Source: an uncultured Bacteroidia bacterium (GTDB lineage: Bacteria > Bacteroidota > Bacteroidia > Bacteroidales > F082). From it: DNA of 64,000 nt. The position numbers were made by a program, and so were the translations under genes. Below, one piece after another: positions 14,665-23,503 of this stretch. Under the pieces are notes generated by a model that worked only from the letters and a program-made list of their open reading frames with translations, made no database searches and was not told the origin of the DNA. The stretch lies in contig CACXUM010000019.1 of assembly GCA_902770835.1 (NCBI GenBank), positions 21,180 to 85,179 of the forward strand. The letters are read 5' to 3'. How positions within the stretch are numbered: the first letter of the stretch is position 1; every line of letters starts with the position of its first letter.

Positions 14665-18012
<3,348 letters not shown>

Positions 18013-18045
18013 TTATGCGTTAAATTGTGAAACTATTAATCGAGT

Positions 18046-18690
18046 TTATGCCGTTTTGTTCCAAATTATGTCATTTGCAAAGACTTGACTCAAAACCTCG
18101 TCTTTTTTGATAATCCAATACTTGAAGCCCAGCATTTCTTTATCAATCGACAATTCTTCCCTAACGGCTTCTTCGGTAAACTTGGATGGATTGTATCTGT
18201 ATGCATCAATTAACTGATTGAACCTATTCATAACAGCCTCAATTTCTTCAAAGAATTTTTCTTCCCGAACTCTTTTTAGTACACCACCGCCATTGAATAT
18301 TGTTTCAAGTAGGGATATGGTTTCCTGAACTTCTTGCGATTCTTCATTGCTTTTGAAAACTACTGCTTTCGAAGCATAATTAATTCTTTGCTCGATAATG
18401 TCCTCAATATCATTGTCTATCGGATTCAGGATGCCGTCAAATCTATTCCCTTTCTTTGGGTTGCAGTAACTGCACGACAGCAGAAGATTTGTCCATTCGG
18501 TTTTTGACTCGGGATGATTCTGCTTGCTTTTCAAATGGTCGATTTGGAAATCGGTGGAAACCTTGCGCTCACAAAGATAACACTTGCATTGTTGGTCCAA
18601 TAGCAGTTGTCTTTTCACGTCCTCACCATCATAGGCATTGGTCGCGGTCAACGACAAAGGCTTGTTGTCTGACTTTGCTATTCGTATCAT
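18046..18690 (-). CDS. ptuB: HNH endonuclease, PtuB of Septu
   Basis: A 214-residue protein with an HNH nuclease core near the N-terminus: CYLCERKV (zinc pair, ~37), QIDHLKSKQ with the catalytic His (~51), then Asn in TNLLLSCSYCNPKKG with the second zinc pair. The C-terminal 130 residues are helical. It overlaps the preceding AAA ATPase by 4 bp. An AAA ATPase translationally coupled to this kind of HNH protein is the make-up of the Septu anti-phage system, where PtuB is the nuclease that acts after PtuA senses infection. The DNA is AT-rich compared with the neighbouring GH97 and carboxylase genes. Confidence 0.82.
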   Translation of the reverse strand: MIRIAKSDNKPLSLTATNAYDGEDVKRQLLLDQQCKCYLCERKVSTDFQIDHLKSKQNHPESKTEWTNLLLSCSYCNPKKGNRFDGILNPIDNDIEDIIEQRINYASKAVVFKSNEESQEVQETISLLETIFNGGGVLKRVREEKFFEEIEAVMNRFNQLIDAYRYNPSKFTEEAVREELSIDKEMLGFKYWIIKKDEVLSQVFANDIIWNKTA

Positions 18691-19886
18691 AGTTCCAAAA
18701 TGGGTTTGATCTTGTCAGCATATTTCACTCTCATTTGCAAATATTCGCCCACGATGGATGGCGAAACCGCTTCAGGGATTTTGTCGAAGTCCTCGACAAG
18801 CAGCCTAATGCTCATCTGTTCGGATGAAGAAAGGCTGTCCTTTGACAACAGATCTTTCAATTCATCCAATCTCATACGGACGCTGCTCGATTCTGAACGG
18901 ACACCGAAATACCCTTCAGCAAGTGATGAATAGGAGTAGTCAGTCAAATCTTCAATGGACTTTCGGTTTTCCAAATCAAATGCCACCACGTTCCTTATTG
19001 AGTTTAATACAAAAGGTGAGTGAGTAGTAACAATGAACTGAATATTCGGGAATGTTTTTGTCAAAAAAGACATAATAATTCGTTGTAATTCAAGATGCAA
19101 GTGTGTTTCAATTTCGTCAATCAGAACAATGCCTTCTTTATTATATGCTTCTGAAAGTTTTCCGCCATGCTGCATCTTCAGAATCAAATCAGTAACAATA
19201 TTGATGGCGGCCTTAAATCCGTCAGACATCTCATTAAACCCGAACTTCTGTTCTCCAAATGAAATCTTGAAGGAATACTTTTTTTCTTGATCAAAATCCA
19301 GCCTCAAGTCTTCCTTCAAAAAGATTCTTTTTAATAATGATTCAAAACCCTCGAACCAAGATTTTATTGATTGTTCTCGCTCCTTTTGCTTGTTGCTAAT
19401 GGCTAATAATTCCTGAAATTTCAAATCAACAAGAAACTTGATAAACTGGTCGGAAACTGTTTCGCGAACAAGCCCCTCGTCCTCAAGTATCGGTTTTTGA
19501 GGAGAATCGGGCTCTATCATTCTTACCTGACGATCAGCCTGATAAAATGCCATGATAAAATCGCCATTTTGATACCTGTCAAGGATATACAAAGGGCTAA
19601 TAATATCACATCTAATCCTACTATCTTTCAGCTTGTAATCTGTCGAATTATCTATATTGTATTTGTAATCACCTTGATGAAATCTACTATGTAGCATTGC
19701 AAGAAAGTTATCTTCGCTCTTCATTTGTTCCAACAGATCTGCAATCGCATTCAAAAGCACCGTCTTTCCGCTTCCATTCTTTCCCGTGATGATAAGATGC
19801 GGATATTTCTCATTCGCTATCGGGATGTCAATGTTCTCCAAATGGAACAACTTATTGATGTGGATGTTTTTGATGAAATAATTCAT
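18687..19886 (-). CDS. ptuA: AAA ATPase, PtuA of Septu
   Basis: A 399-residue ABC/SMC-type ATPase. Walker A is ITGKNGSGKTVLLNA (~34-48). The middle is helical and charged. A signature-like FNEMSDGFKAAIN (~226) precedes Walker B and D-loop VLIDEIETHLHLELQ (~262), and then comes the switch His in TTHSPFVLNSI (~295). Septu PtuA forms a complex with the HNH protein PtuB, and ATP levels control the nuclease. Its stop overlaps the ptuB start by 4 bp, and it begins 51 bp behind the 201-residue-type nuclease gene, so all four genes could be one transcript. Family is clear; the Septu call rests on the pairing. Confidence 0.82.
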   Translation of the reverse strand: MNYFIKNIHINKLFHLENIDIPIANEKYPHLIITGKNGSGKTVLLNAIADLLEQMKSEDNFLAMLHSRFHQGDYKYNIDNSTDYKLKDSRIRCDIISPLYILDRYQNGDFIMAFYQADRQVRMIEPDSPQKPILEDEGLVRETVSDQFIKFLVDLKFQELLAISNKQKEREQSIKSWFEGFESLLKRIFLKEDLRLDFDQEKKYSFKISFGEQKFGFNEMSDGFKAAINIVTDLILKMQHGGKLSEAYNKEGIVLIDEIETHLHLELQRIIMSFLTKTFPNIQFIVTTHSPFVLNSIRNVVAFDLENRKSIEDLTDYSYSSLAEGYFGVRSESSSVRMRLDELKDLLSKDSLSSSEQMSIRLLVEDFDKIPEAVSPSIVGEYLQMRVKYADKIKPILEL

Positions 19887-19937
19887 AATATGTCAGTTTA
19901 GTATTAATTTCAATAACAAAGTCTATTATGGTGAAAT

Positions 19938-20537
19938 TTAGGACTTGTAAAATTCAAGTTGAGAATCGCTTTTTATAGTTATTTCATTAGTAGGCACAAA
20001 ATGTATTCCGTGTTCCTTATAAAATGTCTTGTATTCAATGGGGTCGCTAACAATCATTTCATTGAAAACCGTTTTCTTTCTTGGAAAGGATGCTACTCCA
20101 TACACTTTATTGTTTAGAAGAATTCCTTTCCTTCGGAACTCTCCAACATTCAGTATCAGTTTGTCTTTAACCTCTTGCTTATATTTGAATACTCTGCTCC
20201 CTTTGCAATCTTTAATCTCAATGAATAAAGTCCAACTTTTTTCATCATTTTTATTCGGAAACATGCAGCATTCTCCATGCTTCATGTCTTCGTCTTCCTC
20301 ATTTTTGAATTGATTGTCGCGAAACACATTGTAGTCTATTTGAAGCGCTGATTCATTAGCGATGGCACAACAATCCATTTCAACGGTCTCATCATTGGGA
20401 TCGTTGGGCAGAACCTCATGAATTTCTACACCACGCACACTTTTGGTGCGTTCTGTGAAATCTGCAACAAATATTTGTTGGGAATTCGTGGTACCAAACT
20501 CCGATTCCGGGTATGCCGCCAAAATCCTATTCTTCAT
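19938..20537 (-). CDS. Putative PD-(D/E)XK nuclease paired with an ATPase
   Basis: A 199-residue protein, unrecognised by family. The ATG at 20535-20537 is preferred to the TTG two codons earlier. It overlaps the end of the ATPase gene by 11 bp, so translation is probably coupled. A nuclease-like core can be read: Asp68 in ALQIDYNVF, then Glu107-x-Lys109 in LFIEIKDCKG, then Gln121 in YKQEVKDKL. The order D, ExK, Q with these spacings fits the PD-(D/E)XK superfamily. An acidic stretch (NEEDEDM) lies between. I infer it is the effector of a two-gene ATPase-nuclease system next to Septu; a different fold is possible. Confidence 0.6.
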   Translation of the reverse strand: MKNRILAAYPESEFGTTNSQQIFVADFTERTKSVRGVEIHEVLPNDPNDETVEMDCCAIANESALQIDYNVFRDNQFKNEEDEDMKHGECCMFPNKNDEKSWTLFIEIKDCKGSRVFKYKQEVKDKLILNVGEFRRKGILLNNKVYGVASFPRKKTVFNEMIVSDPIEYKTFYKEHGIHFVPTNEITIKSDSQLEFYKS

Positions 20538-21801
20538 CCTCAAAGTAGTTTAGAAGTGAAAGATATTCAGCCGAATTCTCCTTGTACGCCTTGTTCAGAT
20601 AGTTGTCCTCAATGATGCCATCCTCGTCTTGGATGGTTTGCAAAGAACCGTCGTGGATTTCGTATATGGAAACCTTTTTCGGGTCAATCCAAGCGGTTTG
20701 CGAGACAAAAGAATGTCTTTCTTTTTCAGGAATGTTGTCTTTGACCAAACCACCCATCATGCAGTTGTTGAGGGCAAACAATATGTATGGACTATGCGTT
20801 GTCAAAACCAATGAATTTGACCTGCCCTTATTCGCTTGAATCAACGACAACAGCCAATACACCAATTTCTGTTGCGTTGAAGGGAAAAGATTTTGCTCCG
20901 GCTCTTCAATAAACAACTGTGTATAATGATAATCATACCTATCTGAAAACGACCTTTGCAAATCTTCCAACATTTGTTTCATTGCATCACACGACTTTAT
21001 CTTCGTGTTTATTCCCCATTGCCCCAATTGTTTCTTTACGGTTTCAACATCCGAATAATTTCTTACCAAATCCGAAATCATCTTATCCGTTTCATGGTTC
21101 AAATATGTAATTGATTGCTTCTGCTCATACGACAAAGGACGTTTCTGGCCATATATGGTTTCCAATGAATAATACAGCACCAAATACAATGGTATCAACG
21201 ATTGGACTCCACTCGAAGCATTTGCCAATAATAATTCACTGCCGTTATCAATAATATAATCATTCTCGTTCCTATATTTATAGGATAATTGATGATTAAT
21301 CAACTTATCAAATGTTTGCTCACGAATCTCATCGCGAGAGGTAAACCAATCATACATAAAATACAGAATGACATCATTACTGTCATTGTATTTTTTCAAA
21401 TTGGGAATAGTAGCAACAATATTTCTCTCAGATGGAATATATGATAATTTGGGGTATTTGTACTTTTTGCCATTTATTGATATTGTCGGATGCTCTTTCT
21501 GATGAGCATATTTTATCGTAACAAAATCCCCTCTGTATTCTATAAAACTCTTATCGTTAAAATAACCTTCCAAGCGATGGTATTCAGCCAACGAATCATA
21601 AAATGTCCTGTCTTTCTCATAGAATTTTTTAGTATACTCAATGTCCGAAAAGCATTGCTTCTCAACCCACTGGCAATGACATAGTATCTTCGCAATAGTG
21701 CTCTTGCCGCTGCTTTGAGGACCCATGAACACATTGATTTTGTTCAAGTCAAGTTCCACATTCTTGATGGGGCCGACATTCTTTATTAGAATATGAGTCA
21801 T
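20527..21801 (-). CDS. AAA_15/AAA_21-type ATPase of a defence gene pair
   Basis: A 424-residue ATPase of the OLD/ABC-like group. The start MTHILIKNVGPIKNVELDLN is chosen because the core strand begins there; the longer frame (from 21849) adds only a low-complexity leader. Walker A is MGPQSSGKSTIAKI (~26-39). A signature-like LLANASSGVQS lies at ~190, Walker B and D-loop as LFIEEPEQNLFPSTQ at ~300, and the switch His in TTHSPYILFAL at ~335. The C-terminus contains no visible TOPRIM domain, so it is not a full OLD nuclease. PARIS AriA has the same type of ATPase, but the partner here is not DUF4435-like. It is the first gene of the four-gene block. Confidence 0.75.
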   Translation of the reverse strand: MTHILIKNVGPIKNVELDLNKINVFMGPQSSGKSTIAKILCHCQWVEKQCFSDIEYTKKFYEKDRTFYDSLAEYHRLEGYFNDKSFIEYRGDFVTIKYAHQKEHPTISINGKKYKYPKLSYIPSERNIVATIPNLKKYNDSNDVILYFMYDWFTSRDEIREQTFDKLINHQLSYKYRNENDYIIDNGSELLLANASSGVQSLIPLYLVLYYSLETIYGQKRPLSYEQKQSITYLNHETDKMISDLVRNYSDVETVKKQLGQWGINTKIKSCDAMKQMLEDLQRSFSDRYDYHYTQLFIEEPEQNLFPSTQQKLVYWLLSLIQANKGRSNSLVLTTHSPYILFALNNCMMGGLVKDNIPEKERHSFVSQTAWIDPKKVSIYEIHDGSLQTIQDEDGIIEDNYLNKAYKENSAEYLSLLNYFEDEE

Positions 21802-21867
21802 AATTCCTAGTTTTTTCAAATAGCAAATTCTGTTCGATTCATTTTTCAAATTCCTTTAGCCCCCAAC

Positions 21868-23475
21868 CTACATCCTGAACACCCCAAACTGCTGCGGCGG
21901 GAAGGGCTGGTTCAAGGAGGCGGCGATGCCCAAGGCGAGGATTTTGCGTGTGTCGACGGGGTCGATGATGCCGTCGTCCCAGAGGCGGGCGGTACTGTAG
22001 AAGGCCGAGCCTTCGTAGTCGTATTTGGCCAAGATTTCCTTCTTCAGCTGCGCGATTTCGTCCTTCGGCACTTCAAGGCCTTTGTATTTGTATTGGTCTT
22101 CCTTCACCGTGGCAAGGACGCTGGCCGCCTGCTCGCCGCCCATGACGGAGATTTTGGCGTTGGGCCACATGAAAAGCAGCCTCGGACTGTAGGCGCGACC
22201 CGCCATGCCGTAGTTGCCCGCACCAAACGAGCCTCCGAAGATGACGGTGAACTTCGGCACGTTGGCATTGCTCACCGCGTGTACCATCTTGGCACCGTCC
22301 TTGGCGATGCCGCCCTGCTCGTACTGCTTGCCCACCATAAAGCCCGTGATGTTCTGCAAAAACACCAACGGGATGTTCCTTTGGCAGCATAGCTCGATAA
22401 AGTGCGTGGCTTTTAGTGCTGATTCTGAGAATAATACGCCAAAGTTGGCAAGGATGCCCACGGGGAAGCCCATCAAATGCGCGAAACCGCAAACAAGCGT
22501 GGTGGCATACCTCGACTTGAACTCCTGGAAACGGCTGCCGTCCACGATTCTGGCGATAATCTCACGAGGGTCGACCAACTTGTGGAAATCGATGGGCGCG
22601 AGGCCGTAGAGGTCGTGCGGGTCGTAGAGAGGTGCCTCAACGGGCAACATGTCCAGTTTTTGCCGATGGCTTTTCTCCAAGGTCTTGAAGATGTTGCGGC
22701 AGATCTGTAAAGCGTGTTGGTCGTTTTCGGCCAAGTGGTCTGCGACGCCTGAAATCGAGGTGTGCATCTCGCCGCCGCCCAATTCCTCTGCTGTTACCAC
22801 CTCACCCGTGGCGGCCTTCACCAAGGGAGGTCCGCCGAGGTAAATCGTGCCTTGGTTGCGCACGATGATGGTCTCATCGCTCATGGCTGGAACGTAGGCA
22901 CCGCCCGCCGTACACATACCCATCACGATGGCGATTTGCGGGATGCCCAAGGCCGACATGCGGGCTTGGTTGTAGAAAAACCGCCCGAAGTGGTCGCGGT
23001 CGGGGAAGACCGTGTCTTGCTCGGGAAGGAAGGCGCCGCCGCTGTCGACCATATAGACGCAAGGCAAGTGGTTTTCCATCGCAATCTCTTGGGCGCGAAG
23101 GTGTTTCTTCACGGTGTATTGCATATAGGTACCGCCTTTCACGGTGGCGTCGTTGGCCACAATGACCGCCTCCCTACCTTGAATCACGCCGATGCCGGTG
23201 ATGATTCCCGCCGAGGGGAAGTCATTGTTATAGGTATCGTAAGCCGCCATCGGCGAAAGTTCGAGGAACGGCGTGTTCGGGTCGATGAGCAGGTCGATGC
23301 GCTCGCGGGCAAGGAGTTTGTTGCGTTTCTTATGCTTGGCCACAGCACTTTCGCCGCCACCTTGCATCGAGGCCGACATCGCCTCGCGGTATTGCGCCAT
23401 CAGCGCGAGCATGTTTTTCTCGTTCTGCTTGAACTCTTCGGAGTCGGTGCGTATGTTGGATTTCAGGACTTGCAT
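21868..23475 (-). CDS. Acyl-CoA carboxylase beta subunit, MCC type
   Basis: A 535-residue carboxyltransferase. It transfers the carboxyl group from biotin to an acyl-CoA. The sequence is of the methylcrotonyl-CoA carboxylase beta class: [71 protein letters not shown], and the family's C-terminus FGVFRM. The ATG at 23473-23475 is taken as start; the frame's first codon, a GTG at 23494-23496, overlaps the -7 box (23496-23503). No biotin-carrier or carboxylase alpha subunit lies in the window, so the partner must be elsewhere. Propionyl-CoA carboxylase is the main alternative. It stands upstream of the defence block on the same strand with a 66-bp gap. Confidence 0.9.
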
Positions 23476-23495
23476 GGTATTATAGATTGAAAGCA

Positions 23496-23503
23496 CAAAA
23501 ATA
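23496..23503 (-). promoter_or_regulatory. -7 promoter element of the carboxylase gene
   Basis: TATTTTTG on the minus strand, 20 bp before the chosen ATG. Confidence 0.5.

Follow-up and report, generated by a model that had tools for sequence, protein, structure and literature searches.

How many defence systems are encoded by four genes that follow one another on a single strand as two ATPase–nuclease pairs? The question is raised by a block at positions 18046-21801 (minus strand) of a 64,000-nucleotide stretch of DNA, referred to here at its full length as the window, from an uncultured Bacteroidales bacterium (contig CACXUM010000019.1 of assembly GCA_902770835.1, 3.26 Mb and 85.8% complete). 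An earlier note, made from the sequence alone, saw in this block Septu joined to an ATPase–nuclease pair of a new kind, the latter being either an independent anti-phage module or part of a four-component system with Septu. We conclude, with a probability of roughly 0.78, that the genes form two separate two-gene anti-phage modules, A–B and PtuA–PtuB, which lie next to each other within a chromosomal defence hotspot bordered by the genes for a carboxyltransferase and a GH97 glycosidase. The four open reading frames (ORFs) of the block run in the order A, B, PtuA, PtuB:

20527..21801, minus strand: gene A, OLD-type ABC ATPase of 424 residues with an ATG start, a relative of PADLOC PDC-M29A
19938..20537, minus strand: gene B, predicted PD-(D/E)XK nuclease of 199 residues with an ATG start, a remote homologue of PDC-M29B
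18687..19886, minus strand: PtuA, Septu ATPase of 399 residues (PADLOC PtuA1, PDLC00268, E-value 4.5e-104)
18046..18690, minus strand: PtuB, Septu HNH nuclease of 214 residues (PADLOC PtuB1, PDLC00323, E-value 1e-86; Pfam HNH, 1e-7)

A check of the ORFs returned exactly the coordinates given by the earlier note, together with the 11-bp overlap of A and B, the 51-bp gap between B and PtuA and the 4-bp overlap of PtuA and PtuB. Its description of the block as AT-rich also holds, the GC content per kb being 0.35-0.40 across 18-22 kb, whereas the next kb has 0.563 on the left and 0.570 on the right. The first 1000 positions of the window have a GC content of 0.29, below that of the defence block itself.

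The block does not encode a single system, because in sister species this site carries one pair and lacks the other. In G102 the site holds A–B and no Septu, and in G103 it holds PtuA–PtuB alone (PADLOC 4.6e-114 and 3.2e-76). The sequences shared by the window and G102 on the two sides are:

21685..22100, minus strand: left-hand shared flank, 94.5%, from the 3' end of the carboxyltransferase gene to 117 bp into A
17500..18041, minus strand: right-hand shared flank, 98.7%, beginning 4 bp past the PtuB stop codon (18046-18048)

A four-component system, in which both ATPases and both nucleases would cooperate as a unit, might be suspected from the common strand, from the short distance between the pairs and from the finding that the closest solved fold to A is a PtuA. 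Against it stand the sister species, the absence of PtuB from all 34 A–B loci (L007 and L103 being one contig, and several loci being short) and the loci of G126 and G132, where PtuAB without A–B separates mod from res. This separability rules the candidate out, and we regard it as highly improbable. Thus the independent pair foreseen by the earlier note stands while the cooperative alternative falls, and the pair is of a kind already known.

The site itself is a defence hotspot, at which such modules have been swapped repeatedly among related species. Its borders are:

21868..23496, minus strand: carboxyltransferase gene (ORF; Pfam Carboxyl_trans, 9e-149)
15676..18006, minus strand: GH97-type glycosidase gene (ORF; Pfam Glyco_hydro_97, 7e-94)

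The carboxyltransferase is matched at E 1e-150 in 88 of 99 genomes of the genus and the GH97 gene at E 1e-100 in 83 of 99, some of the latter matches being partial or about 41-44% identical. The site was taken as readable where the two border genes share a contig and a strand and are no more than 20 kb apart, which is the case in 26 genomes, hand-read from tables. It is empty in seven of these, with intervals of 14-36 bp, and holds defence cargo in ten, as labelled from scans of part of the cargo proteins. Besides A–B with Septu in the window's own genome (G000), this cargo consists of A–B (G102), Septu (G103), PDC-S27 with type III restriction-modification (R-M) and Septu (G126), PDC-S27 with an HKD-SNF2-like helicase and a type IIG enzyme (G096), PDC-S27 (G117), HerA with SIR2 and PDC-S27 (G134), R-M methylase and specificity genes (G129), two methylases with a type II restriction endonuclease (G104) and a type II methylase (G099). 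An AlbA_2-like protein stands alone in G064, a 191-residue protein is found in two of the 26 genomes, and a gene resembling the RlmN-type ORF of the window (14665-15681) fills six of the 26 intervals. This last gene lies beyond the glycosidase in the window and inside the interval in six relatives (L038, L039, L045, L054, L055, L057), so that gene order around the hotspot changes too. The ATPase of 490 residues that matches PDC-S27 (E about 1e-187 each) recurs in the cargo of four genomes (L040, L041, L043, L050).

The second pair had been taken for Septu from its ATPase and HNH make-up, and the PADLOC matches listed above, which extend over the full length of both proteins, bear this out. Judged by these matches, a PtuA ATPase with an adjacent PtuB HNH nuclease, it is an ordinary member of Septu type I, and the sole unusual feature seen is its neighbour, A–B. 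The first 40 aligned positions of PtuA include 38 that are identical in G103 (L035), the whole of PtuA and PtuB being about 55% identical; the 5' end of PtuA (window 18687-19886 compared with L035) looks anchored, as with gene A.

The first pair is the less familiar of the two to current models. Its ATPase is, as had been described, of the AAA_15/AAA_21 type (Pfam, E 9e-18 and 7e-12), with no TOPRIM match in the Pfam scan. Among PADLOC models A matches PDC-M29A over residues 1-418 (E 1e-74, 250 bits), as expected of the ATPase of that candidate system, and also AriA (1.3e-19) and PD-T4-4_A (1.5e-13). The closest solved fold is that of E. coli Septu PtuA (8eea, Foldseek E 1.6e-9), and PtuA, GajA and Eco8 are its fold neighbours; compared by sequence with solved structures, A finds at best an OLD-family entry at E 0.18. 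Walker A (27-35), SSG (196-198), EEP (299-301) and TTHSP (334-338) are kept in 24 aligned sequences. A search for the PDC-M29A family gave matches in 44 of 100 relatives, yet also in eight of 14 control genomes, and short weak matches to this model therefore mean only 'some OLD-type ATPase'.

B, by contrast, has no match up to E 1 in the Pfam, NCBIfam or PADLOC models, that of PDC-M29B included, and its matches to PHROGs are weak (best E 0.0076). Four other partners of its kind gave no PADLOC match (G102, L011) or matches at 0.02 (L032) and 6e-5 (L027). A scan of ten proteins that accompany PDC-M29A-like ATPases in related genomes gave three which match PDC-M29B strongly (4.2e-42 to 1.5e-50), three which do so weakly (1.6e-6, 6e-5 and 0.02) and four which do not (L006, L011, L024, L033). 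When a profile of B homologues was aligned by hhalign with one of PDC-M29B-type partners, the two were joined over 120-121 columns with a probability of 97.3-97.4% and an E-value of about 1e-11 (9.6e-12 at 97.4%), the C-E-C of B pairing with C-D-G/C and its E-x-K with E-L-K. Given this alignment and the missing model match, B is a remote homologue of PDC-M29B and not a member of that model. A–B is accordingly a deep-branching variant of the PADLOC candidate PDC-M29, since B itself escapes the PADLOC, Pfam and NCBIfam models.

The residues of B predicted to be catalytic are:

20271..20273, minus strand: codon 89 (E), the same in all 30 aligned sequences and predicted to supply the first catalytic acid
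20211..20219, minus strand: codons 107-109 (E-I-K), predicted to form the catalytic (D/E)xK motif

K109 is present in all 30 aligned sequences and E107 in 29, with D in the other. The PD-(D/E)XK order first proposed, namely D68, E107-x-K109 and Q121, is thus upheld in its central motif only: D68 and Q121 exist but neither is conserved in the alignment, which rejects them as catalytic residues, and it is E89 that is invariant instead. At position 126 B has K where most relatives carry Q. The AlphaFold check called for by the earlier note, run with AlphaFold2, gave a model of high score (predicted local distance difference test, pLDDT, 92.6; predicted template modelling score, pTM, 0.90) whose top fold neighbours include the DNA nucleases FokI, N.BspD6I and R.BspD6I2 and the cyclic-nucleotide-activated nucleases Can2, Cdn1 and Card1. 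B is thus predicted, from its model and alignment, to be a PD-(D/E)XK protein whose E...ExK motif is intact. By sequence, profiles of B reach only E 0.067 and 0.1 against solved structures, and that of the PDC-M29B-type partners 0.74.

A and B form a tightly coupled unit. A scan of genome contigs with profile-derived searches yielded 30 named loci with a B homologue, and a homologue of A lies directly upstream in all 30, which, in loci fetched through B, shows that the pairing is not due to chance. A is split into two frames in L092 and cut by the contig end in four loci. Counted from the first ATG of the B frame, the two genes overlap by 4-44 bp in 29 loci and are separated by 2 bp in one. 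B is rare, being found in five of 173 genomes of the family and six of 393 of the order (the window's own genome included in each); at a threshold of 1e-8 its profile finds nothing in a further 394 genomes from the phylum, and there is none in the plasmid, phage or viral-contig collections.

The neighbourhoods of these loci weigh against a role in defence. In a survey which scanned selected proteins out of 97 neighbours, defence-type genes lie within two genes of A–B in seven of the 30 loci, a raw count without a chance baseline. They are type III R-M genes in L075, L076 and L080, AbiEii with a sub-threshold AbiEi in L091, PIN in L097, TIR in L101 and STAND-Mrr in L103; beyond these seven, L077 lies within the hotspot. 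The remaining pairs resemble lone insertions among ordinary genes, which fits an autonomous module and is no proof of defence. The search for the pair in other genomes proposed by the earlier note has accordingly shown that it recurs, with defence neighbours seen in a minority of loci.

Comparison of the A–B pairs revealed that A is a composite. The parts in question are:

20932..21675, minus strand: central region of A, residues 43-290, exchanged by recombination relative to L075/L076 and likely the sensor part
20530..20901, minus strand: C-terminal part of A, residues 301-424, which travels with B

Between the window and L075, A is 88% identical over residues 1-42, 34% over 43-300 and 80% over 301-424, and B is 82% identical. 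Over residues 43-300 L075 is closer to G102 (56%), the B of which is just 42% like that of the window or of L075. Trees of 18 of the pairs tell the same story: for the C-terminus of A with B the window groups with L075 and L076 (99/99), and a grouping of L075, L076 and G102 is rejected (approximately unbiased test, p-AU 3e-5), whereas for residues 43-290 it is the grouping of the window with L075 and L076 that is rejected (p-AU 0.004), the window having a long branch (2.18) in this tree. On these phylogenies the central domain has been exchanged by recombination, B and the C-terminus of A having stayed together. The pattern suggests an effector that remains in place while its sensor can be replaced. 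Tasks seem to be shared out in a comparable way in WonAB: in the published model WonB sits on C-terminal extensions of WonA that have dimerised, and the ATPases related to WonA vary in their insert regions and C-terminal extensions (PMC12137116).

A second setting of A–B is the mod–res junction of type III R-M operons, which it occupies in L075, L076, L080 and L074. The operon begins with an SNF2 helicase in the first three; in L074 this part was not seen. In L076 the genes match DrmD (9e-197), a type III methyltransferase (3e-187) and a type III restriction endonuclease (9e-155) with ResIII and RE_endonuc domains. Hma was considered as the host operon and rejected: the L076 helicase is DrmD-like, HmaA scoring just 1.7e-55, and the type III genes stand alongside. 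The SNF2–mod operon of L066 (G087:C14:33000-47000) has PDC-M29A-like ATPases with small partners of 200 and 221 residues on both sides of mod, the former having no PADLOC match and no clear Pfam match.

A search with the res gene of L076 found 12 loci, in four of 173 genomes of the family and eight of 295 of the order. The mod–res junction is empty in six (G073, G171, G310, G394, G416, G359) and filled in six, by PtuAB in G126 and G132, by A–B in G413, by a Bro-N gene in G312 and by a pair led by DUF3800 in G250 and G344. The G250 pair (L109:7481-8675) corresponds to the PADLOC candidate PDC-M04A/B (3.5e-97 and 3.1e-67) and that of G344 (L110:3804-5127) was assigned by DUF3800 and likeness; such pairs are seen in two genera. 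By these matches a known or candidate two-gene defence module is present in five of the six filled slots. Directly after B in G102 there is, moreover, a stretch of about 30 nucleotides which resembles the start of the res reading frame (aligned over 29-32 columns with L075 and L043 and over 14 nucleotides with L076), and in each comparison none of 500 base shuffles reached its score. At the hotspot site A–B was probably at one time followed by a res gene.

PrrC, which is linked to type I restriction systems, offers an analogy for a guard that watches over restriction. A–B and PtuAB might likewise be add-ons of type III R-M operons, triggered once restriction is blocked by a phage, those of the window being left-overs without their mod and res genes. 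The occupied mod–res slots and the res-like stretch in G102 speak for this reading, which we nevertheless consider rather unlikely. Mod and res are not beside A–B in 27 of the 30 named loci, so the pair persists without them, and no remnant of either was recognised in the window's own block. Furthermore, the 12 loci are kin of the query, since this came from an operon bearing A–B, and sharing of the slot may merely reflect a tolerant insertion point. A defence that fires on blocked restriction is exemplified by PARIS and phage Ocr (PMC12839542). In a wider and equally tentative picture, A–B and PtuA–PtuB would be interchangeable ATPase–nuclease cartridges for the mod–res slot, guards that kill in response to disabled restriction; they would also escape to hotspots, alone or stacked, and be re-targeted by a swap of the central sensor of the ATPase with its effector-docking end and the nuclease kept.

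How would A–B act? The DNA nucleases among the fold neighbours of B raise the possibility that, under the control of A, it cuts invading DNA as a small restriction enzyme would, the cell surviving. This seems improbable, as no methyltransferase adjoins A–B in the window, mod is likewise seldom its neighbour, and overproduction of the analogous WonB has been reported to leave genomic DNA intact and to halt translation. Most likely, by analogy with WonAB and Septu, A–B and PtuAB are both abortive-infection modules, A being the sensor and B the effector of the former. WonAB loses its function unless both genes are present and the residues of the ATPase and the nuclease are intact (PMC12137116), and its activation inhibits translation; cutting of tRNA or rRNA has been suggested as the action of WonB, and a Septu other than that of the window has been shown to cleave tRNA-Tyr upon infection (PMC13096335). 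In the mechanism we propose, A would dimerise, sense infection through its variable central domain and carry B on its C-terminal part, which is conserved. Once infection is sensed, a change driven by ATP would free B to act, and its activity would stop growth, probably by the cutting of tRNA or rRNA, so that the phage cannot mature. Exchange of the central domain would then alter what is sensed and leave the effector untouched.

A–B adds a compact and testable branch to a little-studied family in which ABC-ATPase sensors have nuclease effectors as partners. Nature has provided clean experiments: one site is empty or carries either pair or both, and one ATPase has a changed middle with the same ends and partner. 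Such variants allow one to ask which part of the ATPase senses phage, a question left open by the WonAB papers, and the shared mod–res slot suggests a link of these modules to restriction. As far as our searches show, in a literature that excludes the holdings of bioRxiv itself and most subscription papers, three things are new: a branch whose B escapes current models, the occurrence of A–B in the type III mod–res slot and in the hotspot, and the domain exchange in A. No paper naming PDC-M29 was found in this literature, and the matches listed contained nothing relevant on type III mod/res combined with Septu and no precedent among Bacteroidales hotspots. Embedding of defence genes within other systems, Septu in Hma included, has been described (PMC12255303; PMC8565338), as have OLD-ABC ATPases with PD-(D/E)XK, HNH or PIN partners in 594 taxa, in BREX and related loci (PMC12839542).

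The earlier note saw no partner such as B in PARIS, RloAB or OLD systems, but PDC-M29 in PADLOC and the experimentally tested WonAB are precedents. PARIS (AriA–AriB) resembles A–B in its ATPase only, and is rejected since B has no match to AriB or to DUF4435, the TOPRIM partner of that system. PD-T4-4 is likewise a two-gene system with a similar ATPase, and fails as an identity for A–B since B does not match PD-T4-4_B. PDC-M29 is closer: A matches PDC-M29A over its length, and B shares C-(D/E)-x ... E-x-K with the PDC-M29B-type partners, although B lacks a PADLOC match and with its kin is about 186-207 residues long as against about 165-173. Like WonAB, compared by make-up and not by sequence, A–B joins an OLD-ABC ATPase to a PD-(D/E)xK nuclease in two genes (PMC12137116); it differs from WonAB in its settings, which are a Bacteroidales-type hotspot and operons for type III restriction.

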